Made by a program: the position numbers and the translations under genes. Shown piece by piece: positions 7,617 to 18,101 of a DNA stretch of 35,555 nucleotides. The stretch is from Candidimonas sp. (GTDB lineage Bacteria > Pseudomonadota > Gammaproteobacteria > Burkholderiales > Burkholderiaceae_B). The DNA is taken from positions 1 to 35,555 of the forward strand of contig SCQX01000076.1 in assembly GCA_004298545.1 (NCBI GenBank), in the 5' to 3' direction. A model generated the notes under the pieces. The model did not search any database. It worked only from the letters and a program-made list of their open reading frames with translations, and had not been told where the DNA came from. Within the stretch, counting starts at the first letter, position 1. Every line of letters begins with the position of its first letter.

Positions 7617-7711
7617 GGCGGGCCCCTTCGCATGGTTCGGCGGTGAACCTGGTCAGGTCGGGAACGAAGCAGCCACAGTCGCTCAGAGCCAGTGCCGAAG
7701 TCAGGCTCGCC
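7617..7711 (+). ncRNA. ffs: Signal recognition particle RNA, bacterial small (4.5S) type
   Basis: The RNA binds Ffh and targets nascent membrane proteins to the translocon. The universal SRP domain IV apex is present at 7644-7673: TGAACCTGGTCAGG, a GGAA tetraloop, then GAAGCAGCCACAG. The ends pair: GGCGGGCC (7617-7624) with GGCTCGCC (7704-7711), one G-U included, giving a 95-nt hairpin close to the usual length. Compared with E. coli the pair closing the GGAA loop is flipped (C-GGAA-G becomes G-GGAA-C), a compensating change that keeps the fold. The exact ends are from base-pairing and could be off by a few nucleotides. A -10-like box lies just upstream and a terminator candidate about 35 nt downstream. 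Confidence 0.94.
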
Positions 7712-7744
7712 TATTCCGCTGTCATCCCCGTACCGTCATCCCTC

Positions 7745-13894: not shown

Positions 13895-16800
13895 ATGCCA
13901 AAGCGTACAGACATAAAAACCATCCTGATCATTGGTGCGGGGCCCATCGTCATCGGCCAGGCGTGCGAGTTCGATTACTCCGGCGCGCAGGCGTGCGAGG
14001 CGCTGATGGCCGAGGGGTTTCGCGTCGTCCTGGTCAACAGCAACCCGGCGACCATCATGACCGATCCGGACATGGCCAGCGTCACCTACATCGAACCGAT
14101 CACCTGGCGGGCACTCGAAAAAATCATCGCCAAGGAGAAGCCCGACGCCGTGCTCCCCACGATGGGCGGCCAGACCGCGCTGAACTGCGCGCTCGACCTC
14201 GTTCATCATGGCGTCCTTGCCAAGCATGGCGTCGAACTCATCGGTGCGAACGAGCAGGCCATCGAAAAGGCGGAAGATCGGCTGAAGTTCAAGCAGGCCA
14301 TGACGCGCATCGGACTGAAATCGGCCAAGTCGGGCATCGCGCACACGATGGAGCAGGCCTGGACGGTGCAGCGCCAGATCGCCGCCGACGTGGGAACGTC
14401 CGGTTTTCCGGTGGTGATCCGGCCGAGTTTCACGCTGGGCGGCACGGGCGGGGGCATTGCCTACAATCCCGAGGAATTCGAGGCGATCTGCCGGCGTGGA
14501 CTCGATGCTTCCCCCACCAGCGAGTTGCTGATCGAGGAATCGCTGCTGGGCTGGAAAGAGTTCGAGATGGAGGTGATCCGCGATCGCGCGGACAACTGCA
14601 TCATCGTCTGCGCGATCGAGAACCTCGACCCGATGGGCGTGCATACGGGCGATTCCATTACGGTGGCGCCGGCGCAGACGCTGACCGACAAAGAATATCA
14701 GATCATGCGGGATGCCTCTATCGCCATACTGCGCGAGGTCGGGGTTGAAACCGGCGGTTCGAATGTGCAGTTCGCCGTCAACCCCGCCGATGGCCGGATG
14801 ATCGTCATCGAAATGAATCCGCGTGTTTCACGGTCGTCGGCCCTGGCCTCGAAAGCAACCGGCTTCCCGATTGCCAAGGTCGCCGCCCGCCTGGCGGTGG
14901 GCTACACCCTGGACGAACTGCGCAACGAAATCACCGGCGGCGCAACACCGGCATCGTTCGAGCCGTCCCTCGATTACGTCGTGGTCAAGGTGCCGCGCTT
15001 CGCCTTCGAGAAATTCCCGCAGGCGGACTCGCGCCTCACCACCCAGATGAAATCGGTCGGCGAGGTGATGGCCATTGGCCGCACCTTCCAGGAATCATTC
15101 CAGAAGGCGCTGCGTGGCCTGGAAGTGGGTGTGGATGGGTTGAACCAGAAGACCACCGATCGTGAAAGGCTGCAAGTGGAACTGGGGGAGCCGGGGCCGG
15201 AACGCATCTGGTACGTGGGCGATGCGTTCGCCCAGGGCTTCACGCTCGATGAGGTCTACACGTTGACGCACATCGACCCCTGGTTCCTGGCGCAGATCAA
15301 AGAGATCGTCGATATCGAACTGGCGCTCGAACAGCGCACGCTGGCCGACCTCGATTATCAGGCACTGGTTGACCTGAAGCGCCGGGGGTTTTCCGACCGG
15401 CGTCTGGCGTTCCTGCTCGATACCTCGGAAACCGAGGTGCGGAAACTGCGCCATCAGCTCAACGTGCGGCCGGTCTACAAGCGGGTGGACACCTGCGCGG
15501 CGGAATTCGCCACGACGACGGCCTACCTGTACTCCACCTACGAAGAGGAGTGCGAGGCGGCACCGACGAACCGCAAGAAGATCATTGTGCTGGGCGGCGG
15601 GCCGAACCGCATCGGCCAGGGTATCGAATTCGACTACTGCTGCGTGCATGCAGCGCTGGCGCTGCGCGAAGATGGTTTCGAGACCATCATGGTCAATTGC
15701 AATCCCGAGACCGTGTCAACGGATTACGATACCTCCGACCGTCTGTATTTCGAGCCGCTGACGCTGGAAGATGTCCTCGAGATCGTGCACAAGGAAAACC
15801 CCGTTGGCGTCATCGTGCAATATGGCGGCCAGACGCCGCTGAAACTTGCGCGTGCGCTGGAGGCCAATGGTGTCCCCATCATCGGCACCAGCCCCGAATC
15901 GATCGACGTGGCCGAAGACCGCGAACGGTTCCAGAAGCTGCTGACCAAGCTGGGCCTGCGCCAGCCGCCCAATCGGTCGGCGCACACCGAGGGCGAGGCG
16001 CTGGTTCTCGCCGCCGACATCGGCTACCCGCTGGTGGTGCGGCCCAGCTACGTCCTGGGCGGGCGCGCGATGGAGATCGTGCATGAGCAGTCGGACCTTG
16101 AACGCTACATGCGCGAGGCCGTCAAGGTCAGCAACGATTCGCCCGTGTTGCTCGACCATTTCCTGAACAACGCCACCGAGCTCGACGTGGACTGCCTGGC
16201 CGACGGTCAGCAAGTGCTGGTTGCCGGCGTCATGGAACATATCGAACAGGCGGGCGTGCATTCCGGCGATTCGGCGTGCAGCCTGCCGCCGTATTCCCTG
16301 TCGGCCGCGATAGTCGAGGAAATCGAGCGCGAGACCGCGCTCATGGCGCGCGCGCTCAACGTCACCGGGTTGATGAACGTTCAGTTCGCCATCCAGGATG
16401 GGGATGTCTACGTGCTGGAAGTCAACCCGCGCGCCTCGCGCACGGTGCCGTTCGTATCCAAGGCCACCGGCATGCCACTGGCGAAGATAGCGGCGCGGGC
16501 GATGACAGGCCGCTCGCTGGCCGATCAGGGTATCGTCGCGGAGATCGTGCCGCCGTACTTCTCGGTCAAGGAAGCGGTGTTTCCGTTCGTCAAGTTTCCC
16601 GGCGTCGACACCATACTCGGTCCTGAAATGAAGTCGACCGGCGAAGTCATGGGGGTCGGCGAGAGTTTCGCCGAGGCCTTTGTGAAGTCGCAGCTGGCCG
16701 CGGGGGCGTCGCTGCCCGAGTCGGGAGTAGCCTTCATCAGTGTGCGCGATCAGGATAAGCCGCTGGCGGCGGCGGTGGCCAAGGGCCTGGTCGACCTGGG

Positions 16801-17137
16801 CTTCTCGGTGGTCGCGACGCGCGGCACCGCTGCGGCGATAGAGGCCGCCGGCCTGCATGTGCAGGTGGTCAACAAAGTAACCGAGGGCCGCCCGCACATT
16901 GTCGACATGATCAAGAATGGCGAGATCTCGATGGTGATCAACACGGTGGAAGAGCGCCGCAACGCCATCGCCGACTCGCGCACGATACGAACCCACGCGT
17001 TGGCCAGCCGCGTCACGTTCTTTACGACGATCGCGGGCGCTTGCGCGGCCGTCGAGGGCTTGCGCTACCTGCATCAGGGCAAGGGGCTGCAGGTGTATGC
17101 CTTGCAGGAGCTCCACGCGCGCAACCGGGCCCATTGA
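13895..17137 (+). CDS. carB: Carbamoyl-phosphate synthase large subunit
   Basis: CarB makes carbamoyl phosphate from bicarbonate, ammonia and two ATP. At 1080 residues it is full length (E. coli 1073). It shows two homologous halves, each with a pre-ATP-grasp and ATP-grasp fold: [20 protein letters not shown], then [16 protein letters not shown] and [20 protein letters not shown] in the first; [36 protein letters not shown] and [20 protein letters not shown] in the second. An MGS-like allosteric domain (about 940-1080; [30 protein letters not shown]) would bind ornithine and UMP. An AGAAAGAAAG stretch precedes ATG 13895. The stop codon lies inside the first copy of a 13-bp direct repeat. Confidence 0.98.
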
Positions 17138-17167
17138 CGGAAGGGTCGCACCCGCATTGACGGAAGG
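17132..17167 (+). repeat. 13-bp direct repeat spanning the carB stop codon
   Basis: CATTGACGGAAGG occurs at 17132-17144 (containing the carB TGA) and again at 17155-17167, 23 nt apart. It looks like a small local duplication. Confidence 0.85.
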
Positions 17168-17217
17168 TGCGTGCGCTATCTCGGGCGGCCCTGATTGGCC
17201 CGTTGTGTGGTTTTTTG

Positions 17218-17286
17218 GCGCGTGATCCGGGGGCGATGTCAAAAAATGCGGGTGTCGGTTTTCGAGCGCATGATCCGTGGGCGGTG
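17218..17286 (+). repeat. Imperfect 21-bp direct repeats between carB and greA
   Basis: Copies at 17218-17238 and 17266-17286 share 18 of 21 bases (core TGATCCG-GGGCG), with 48 nt from start to start. They could be protein-binding sites or a worn duplication. Confidence 0.6.
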
Positions 17287-17313
17287 CCGATATGGGCGTC
17301 GATTTCCCGGGGC

Positions 17314-17342
17314 TTGCAATTTTTGCGATCTTTGCCGACAAT
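17314..17342 (+). promoter_or_regulatory. Sigma70-like promoter directly upstream of a terminator
   Basis: TTGCAA (17314-17319) and GACAAT (17337-17342) are spaced 17 bp apart, a good sigma70 arrangement. The predicted start (about 17349) is only a few bases before the terminator hairpin at 17353, so the transcript would be about 35 nt unless the hairpin is read through. Confidence 0.35.
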
Positions 17343-17352
17343 AGGCTTGAGA

Positions 17353-17384
17353 CCCCGGTTCTTACCGAGCCGGGGTTTTATTTT
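17353..17384 (+). terminator. Strong intrinsic terminator in the carB-greA gap
   Basis: CCCCGGTTC pairs with GAGCCGGGG across the loop TTACC (9 bp with one T-G pair) and is followed by TTTTATTTT. It lies 215 nt after the carB stop, so it is most simply the end of the carAB transcript with a long 3' UTR. Confidence 0.8.
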
Positions 17385-17442
17385 GAACCTGATATCCGCA
17401 TCCGGGGCGCCGGTTCTGTCGGTGCCGACGGGCTCGGGTGTC

Positions 17443-17480
17443 GTTCACCGCTCCCAGAGGAGCGGCGGCTGGCGGTGAAC
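17443..17480 (+). promoter_or_regulatory. Mutually exclusive RNA hairpins upstream of greA
   Basis: A perfect hairpin CCGCTCC-CAGA-GGAGCGG (17448-17465) shares bases with a longer perfect 9-bp inverted repeat GTTCACCGC (17443-17451) / GCGGTGAAC (17472-17480). The two pairings compete for 17448-17451, as in attenuators or switch-like leaders. A regulatory role is inference; the distance to greA is 145 nt. Confidence 0.4.
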
Positions 17481-17624
17481 CCGTGAGTCCCCAGTGGATG
17501 GGTACTTCCGCATTGCATCTGGGTTTTCCGCCAGGCCAGCAACTTCCCGCTACCTTCGCACAACATATAACGGGGCGCTCTGTATCGTGGAGCGTCCGTC
17601 CATTTTTCGATTCAGGAAAACCAT

Positions 17625-18101
17625 ATGCCTACGATTCCATTGACGGCTCGTGGCGCCGAGCGCCTGCAAGCGGAATTGCATCGCTACAAGACAGTGGAGC
17701 GCCCCGCGGTGATCGCAGCGATTGCCGAAGCCCGTTCCCATGGCGATTTGTCCGAGAACGCCGAATACGATGCGGCGCGGGAGCGACAGGCCTTCGTCGA
17801 GGGGCGCATCCAGGAACTGGAGGGTACGTTGTCGAGTGCCCAAATCATCGATCCTACGGCACTCGATGTCGACGGGCGCACCGTGTTTGGCGCCACTGTC
17901 GAGATCGCGGATCTGGAGTCGGGAGAGCACGTCACCTACCAGATCGTCGGCGACATCGAAGCCGATATACGCGCCAACCTGATTTCCGTCTCCAGCCCGG
18001 TGGCCCGTGCGCTGATTGGTAAAAGCGAGGGCGATGTCGTGCAGGTTCAGGTGCCGGCCGGCATTCGCGAGTACGAAGTCGTGCGTGTCAGCTACCTTTG
18101 A
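17625..18101 (+). CDS. greA: Transcription elongation factor GreA
   Basis: GreA rescues backtracked RNA polymerase by stimulating transcript cleavage. The 158-residue protein has the N-terminal coiled coil whose tip carries [16 protein letters not shown] with the catalytic acidic residues D41 and E44 (same numbers as E. coli), then the FKBP-like domain ([44 protein letters not shown]). Length equals E. coli GreA (158). AGGA at 17614-17617 supports ATG 17625. It lies downstream of carAB and converges on yhbY, the same arrangement as in E. coli. Confidence 0.97.

Follow-up and report, generated by a model that had tools for sequence, protein, structure and literature searches.

The gap between carB and greA

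In the window (the whole 35,555-nucleotide stretch of Candidimonas sp. DNA that was analyzed), a gap of 487 nt (17138-17624) separates carB (13895-17137) from greA (17625-18101). The greA product acts on RNA polymerase that has stalled and rescues it, and relatives of the gene were found at E <= 1e-40 in 197 of 200 genomes of the same family. The features considered here are as follows.

17313-17384, forward strand: element A (promoter, hairpin and U-tract), recognized from its sequence and its conservation in the family
17314-17342, forward strand: predicted greA leader promoter of the sigma-70 type, from sequence and column identity in family copies
17349-17384, forward strand: predicted prematurely terminated leader RNA of about 34-37 nt, with a putative start at 17348-17351 and a putative end
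17352-17376, forward strand: hairpin A, predicted intrinsic-terminator stem ACCCCGGTTC-UUACC-GAGCCGGGGU, from shuffles and conservation
17376-17384, forward strand: interrupted U-tract of terminator A, TTTTATTTT, from the tract pattern across copies
17442-17534, forward strand: a pair of hairpins, 17442-17482 and 17469-17534, of which only one can form at a time, from shuffles
17573-17597, forward strand: hairpin B, before the greA ribosome-binding site, from 54 aligned copies and shuffles
17625-18101, forward strand: greA coding sequence (ORF of 158 aa), the gene that the leader would serve

The gap as a whole folds to -219 kcal/mol (z -2.75; 1 of 100 shuffles equally low). An initial annotation had described it as structured, and all the features it listed are found in the sequence, but some are no better than chance. 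Judged by single-hairpin z scores against 300 shuffles, hairpin A and the stem at 17573-17597 stand out, and the one at 17443-17480 is marginal. The annotation had seen two competing hairpins at the latter place. An overlapping pair does exist there, but the hairpin originally noted (17442-17482) has a z of only -1.95, with 12 of 300 shuffles as low; its partner, 17469-17534, has a z of -3.9 (0/300). Neither has a homologous stretch near greA in the 200 family genomes, a set that includes no other genome of the genus, and perhaps they have no function.

The direct repeats that had been reported are there too: a 30-nt pair of 80% identity (17209-17238 and 17257-17286, copies 48 nt apart), an identical 13-nt pair at 23-nt spacing that spans the carB stop (17132-17144 and 17155-17167), and an 18-nt pair of 78% identity (17355-17372 and 17410-17427). 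The 30-nt and 13-nt pairs would be imperfect local duplications. The repeats lack homologs near greA in the 200 family genomes, and a search of the organism's own genome with the entire gap (E <= 0.001) returned nothing but the gap itself. No Rfam family reached its gathering score in the gap, and the permissive hits (anti-hemB, E 0.3; DsrA, E 0.68) were both far below it. Elsewhere in the window, Rfam identifies a bacterial small SRP RNA (RF00169) at 7617-7714 on the forward strand, with 79.6 bits.

When 17138-17700 was compared by BLAST with the 200 family genomes, matches were obtained in 111. Nearly all of them fall into one of two blocks, the first at about 17309-17389 and the second taking in the last part of the gap and the beginning of greA. 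The few weak matches elsewhere in the gap (E >= 0.001) lie on contigs other than that of the greA match, or have greA elsewhere.

Element A and its linkage to greA

The first block corresponds to element A. Its predicted promoter has a -35 hexamer TTGCAA (17314-17319), a 17-nt spacer, an extended -10 TTTGCC (17331-17336) and a -10 hexamer GACAAT (17337-17342). The -10 ends at 17342, 10 nt before a stem formed by 17353-17361 and 17367-17375, so that the promoter-like pair set 10 nt before a strong terminator, as first annotated, is present. For hairpin A, z is -4.4 over 17352-17376 and -5.5 over 17351-17384, with none of 300 shuffles as low in either case. Because the two hexamers match only 8 of 12 consensus positions, the promoter is missing from the list given by a simple promoter/terminator scan of the gap; hairpin A is not on that list either. 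From the places of the -10 and the U-tract, transcription would start about 2-5 nt before stem A; the segment 17349-17384 folds to -22.4 kcal/mol.

Conservation follows the parts of the element. Over 40 aligned family copies (alignment A1, made without L048, L014 and L061) mean column identity is 0.88-0.98 for the -35, for the extended -10 and the -10, for both arms of the stem and for the U-tract: 0.97 (17313-17318), 0.92 and 0.95 in the promoter, 98% in the stem arms and 0.88 in the U-tract. The first transcribed bases and the loop side have 0.53 and 0.61, respectively. The tract itself has a characteristic form. An interrupted tract (T3-6, one or two other bases, T3-6) follows the stem in 37 of the 40 copies, in 16 of 35 greA terminators of other betaproteobacteria and at 11 of 83 terminator-like background sites, the corresponding figures for an unbroken run of at least six T being 1/40, 4/35 and 12/83; this contrast is indicative only, as the 40 copies are mutually related and the background includes false sites.

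A covariance model of element A (R1) has matches at E <= 0.01 in 176 of the 200 family genomes, in 160 of the 178 that are of good quality, and in 40 of 43 genera. A single match is the rule (160 of the 176 genomes; the other 16 have two or three), and the organism's own genome has one strong match, the next being at E 1.3. Among the R1 matches listed, 142 of the 143 compared lie on the same contig and strand as greA, 8-381 nt upstream of it (median 141.5), and the sole exception, in G098, is at contig edges. These 143 are drawn from 150 listed matches, the remaining seven genomes (G030, G077, G100, G120, G145, G154 and G169) having no listed greA row. Even genomes of about 0.8 Mb carry the element; in G007, for example, it is 53 nt upstream of greA.

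R1 found no match in 24 of the 200 genomes. In the three of these that were viewed, greA is preceded by a different hairpin (G014 and G146) or by no hairpin (G012). The weakest matches (G023, G033, G047 and G084, E 0.0018-0.0096) may be due to chance, since an ordinary E. coli terminator scores 22.8 bits. The latter, R1's match in E. coli K-12, is the terminator between obgE and dacB (L198, 3895-3963, reverse strand). R1 was also tried as a wider detector, on 22 chosen loci from other betaproteobacteria plus E. coli, and was rejected for this use: its single match at E <= 1 was an ordinary terminator.

The spacing between element A and greA has some variants. Twelve R1 matches have a spacing of 8-11 nt (for instance L239 and L240), with element A directly before the greA start, and hairpin B was not seen in the short-spacing loci that were viewed (L178, L180, L185, L191, L239 and L240); this may be an older arrangement or a deletion. 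In L241 (G159) and L257 (G010) there are GC-rich stretches with a common GGGGGCAGCAAGCCGAAGGCG between element A and greA, and in L241 the stretch bearing it recurs in units about 80 nt long, arranged head to tail. These stretches may be a dispersed intergenic repeat.

Is element A a leader of greA or merely the terminator of the gene before it? That gene varies within the family: a few genomes have carB there, others a permease of the xanthine/uracil type or the ATPase of an ABC transporter. When 21 loci were scanned for ORFs, the nearest one upstream was permease-like in seven and ABC-ATPase-like in two (by eye), with no clear reading in twelve; a Pfam check placed three of the permease-like ORFs in Xan_ur_permease (PF00860) and one of the ABC-ATPase-like ORFs in ABC_tran (PF00005). 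The window and G007 have carB upstream of greA and both have element A. The same neighbor occurs in G012, G033 and G146, of which the first and last have no R1 match and G033 has only the doubtful one. Since the upstream gene changes while element A stays with greA, the element belongs, as a predicted leader, to greA and not to carB. That hairpin A is a plain carB terminator, abutted by the greA promoter by chance, is unlikely: element A does lie between the two genes in the window, where it would insulate greA, and G007 too has carB on that side, but of 60 other family genomes tabulated just one (G012, which lacks element A) showed the end of carB upstream of greA, and many of the others carry the element. 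Moreover, the -10-to-stem distance is short and keeps to a narrow range while the distance to greA runs from 8 to 381 nt, and in E. coli greA shows this layout with no carB beside it.

Covariation, controls and other greA loci

Covariation in the stem at 17353-17375 had been proposed as a check, and the outcome is mixed. In the 40-row set stem A is near-invariant: 92.0% of cells are paired and one pair has two-sided changes, that outer pair being unpaired in 18 of 38. With diverged rows added (alignment A4: 29 of the 40 A1 rows, L014 and 14 diverged rows; L054 and L247, whose hairpins are wholly different, were left out), 96.9% of cells are paired and three of six pairs have two-sided changes (5 cells; 0/500 shuffles). 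A control slid by -3 equals this with four pairs and 5 cells, yet has only 31.4% of cells paired; the best slid version reaches 79.7%. Position and composition thus speak more strongly for element A than covariation, which is weak to moderate.

For the stem at 17573-17597 the same check gave a clear result. Hairpin B (z -3.9, 0/300 shuffles as low) has 97.3% of cells paired over 54 rows, with two-sided changes in five of nine pairs (19 cells; 0/500 shuffles), and slid versions attain at most 67.8% paired and 13 cells. The percentage paired is favored by the choice of rows, as the alignment (A2) holds the 54 of 73 distinct upstream stretches that have the hairpin; 18 with no visible hairpin of this type and the near-copy L196 were dropped by eye. 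The initial annotation had pointed to a hairpin followed by T5 near the greA start. That feature is present. Hairpin B is the only terminator-like site on the simple scan's list, with 1 found where 1.1 are expected by chance; in the window GTCC comes between the hairpin and T5. The tract directly 3' of hairpin B resembles TTTTTACTTTT in most aligned relatives and is GTCCATTTTTCG in the window. Because the first half of its tract is replaced, hairpin B may not terminate in this genome.

Promoter-plus-terminator pairs are enriched upstream of greA over controls. A generic scan found a pair at 17 of 23 family greA loci (400 nt scanned; terminators counted alone, 21/23), at 17 of 77 greA loci of other betaproteobacteria (300 nt; terminators, 35/77), and at none of 20 greB loci (500 nt). 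The 77 are 78 loci less L072, which has only 35 nt upstream. In 20 rounds of shuffling the mean numbers of pairs were 0 and 0.05, and 800,000 strand-bases of background gave 83 terminator-like sites and no pair. The same scan picks up E. coli GraL, a leader element of greA in that organism.

In the other betaproteobacteria, the occurrence of a terminator near greA was tabulated by the size of the carB-greA gap, the bins taking in 76 of the 77 loci: 0/15 below 40 nt, 2/10 at 40-70 nt, 27/46 at 70 nt or more, and 5/5 where carB is not next door. The values 35/77 and 27/46 are too low, since hairpins with long loops or bulges escape the scan, among them some recognized by eye in Burkholderia and Oxalobacteraceae. 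Many long-gap betaproteobacteria of other families have hairpins of different sequence between carB and greA. In 14 mostly Comamonadaceae-like loci the greA hairpin has other letters, with two-sided changes in four of 11 pairs (10 cells; 0/500 shuffles by cells, 13/500 by pairs); two slid versions reach four pairs, with 4 cells each. These loci (alignment A3) were picked by eye from 78 for one hairpin type, which favors the percentage paired.

Among other families of the class, no terminator leader was found at any of 29 loci. The sample is not random, since 68 other genomes gave a greA match and the best of these matches were taken. At 28 of the 29 loci carB is the neighbor, and the gap to greA measures -4 to 68 nt. 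The 29th has no carB and no leader either, which counts against a strict rule linking the leader to carB distance. A transcript running through carA, carB and greA is described for Pseudomonas syringae (PMC4997734).

Hairpin A could also be read not as a terminator but as a 5'-terminal stem-loop shielding greA mRNA from decay. A stem-loop near the 5' end is a layout known to stabilize some mRNAs, and the predicted start 2-5 nt before the stem would suit it. Protection would not require a U-tract, however, and this one is conserved; U-rich tracts also lie 3' of the different-sequence hairpins before greA in other families. We regard such a role as quite improbable. Finally, it is very doubtful that element A is a stand-alone gene for a trans-acting small RNA with only a secondary proximity to greA: GraL is reported to act in trans too (PMC6829880) and the sequence of stem A is nearly invariant, but the loop side and first transcribed bases are so poorly conserved that there is no conserved single-stranded seed for pairing, and linkage to greA holds for all but one of the 143 matches compared among those listed. 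The initial wording "regulatory leader or small RNA locus" is partly supported: conservation favors a greA-linked leader and does not support a trans-acting small RNA.

A predicted attenuating leader and its relation to GraL

We consider it probable, from the sequence and by analogy with E. coli, that the conserved core within the gap is a GraL-like leader belonging to greA, with early termination, fractional read-through and, plausibly, feedback by GreA. Polymerase starting at the sigma-70-type promoter would meet intrinsic terminator A almost at once, and many transcripts would probably stop after about 34-37 nt. A fraction, suggested by the interruption of the U-tract, would read past A and then hairpin B, yielding greA mRNA. 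Given the predicted start, a transcript from this promoter would have about 2-5 nt 5' of the stem, too few for an upstream antiterminator. In a transcript reading through from carB, upstream sequence pairs with the 5' arm at -14.4 kcal/mol at best, weaker than the -17.6 kcal/mol computed for the two arms pairing with each other. If no upstream RNA switch is possible, regulation would have to come from polymerase and its binding partners, and the best candidate among regulators bound to polymerase is GreA, by analogy with E. coli. Element A would thus attenuate greA and may mediate feedback by GreA.

The absence of room 5' of stem A sets the element apart from the greA- and rnk-leaders of Naville and Gautheret (2010), which are reported to have an antiterminator in each case; the figure legend for those leaders names Pseudomonas, Enterobacteria, Yersinia and bacilli and does not include betaproteobacteria (PMC2965389). 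A literature search that took in few subscription journals found no paper on a greA leader in the window's family, and a term search of the main text of Burkholderia cenocepacia transcriptome papers found no naming of greA.

GraL is the closest known counterpart. According to PMC6829880, it lies in the greA 5' UTR and has promoters of its own and, after them, an intrinsic terminator. The resulting RNAs are 37-59 nt long, termination is imprecise, and read-through is partial, with about one transcript in three passing the terminator. GreA lowers greA expression in vivo, an effect that needs both the GraL sequence and the cleavage function of GreA, but a defined in vitro system did not reproduce this autoregulation (PMC6829880). 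Element A has the same order of promoter and then intrinsic terminator before greA. Placed 5' of greA, equipped with a predicted promoter of its own, whose hexamers are conserved, and linked to greA in 142 of 143 cases among the matches listed, it would belong to the GraL type of layout. The hairpin sequences differ, and R1 gives no match to the E. coli greA leader at E <= 1, which is to say no sequence homology to GraL was detected at that threshold. The suggestion of a similar but unrelated device is consistent with these results. Unlike GraL, the locus also has a second hairpin before the ribosome-binding site, seen here in the sequence.

The scan found no promoter-proximal terminator at the 28 sampled short-gap greA loci from other families of the class, but such terminators occur in the window's family, in E. 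coli and in betaproteobacteria with a long gap. On this basis we put forward, tentatively, that such a terminator arose more than once, with unrelated hairpins, as greA gained distance from carAB, and that it could be a minimal sensor by which polymerase alone, with no RNA switch, responds to how much GreA is present. The stem of GraL begins at +19, whereas the putative start would put stem A at about +3 to +6, and the predicted RNA would measure about 34-37 nt as against 37-59 nt for GraL. The far earlier position of the stem counts against the attenuator reading. The near-absence of RNA before the hairpin, predicted family-wide and even in the roughly 0.8-Mb genome G007, would make element A a smaller object than GraL for asking whether the state of polymerase alone sets read-through.
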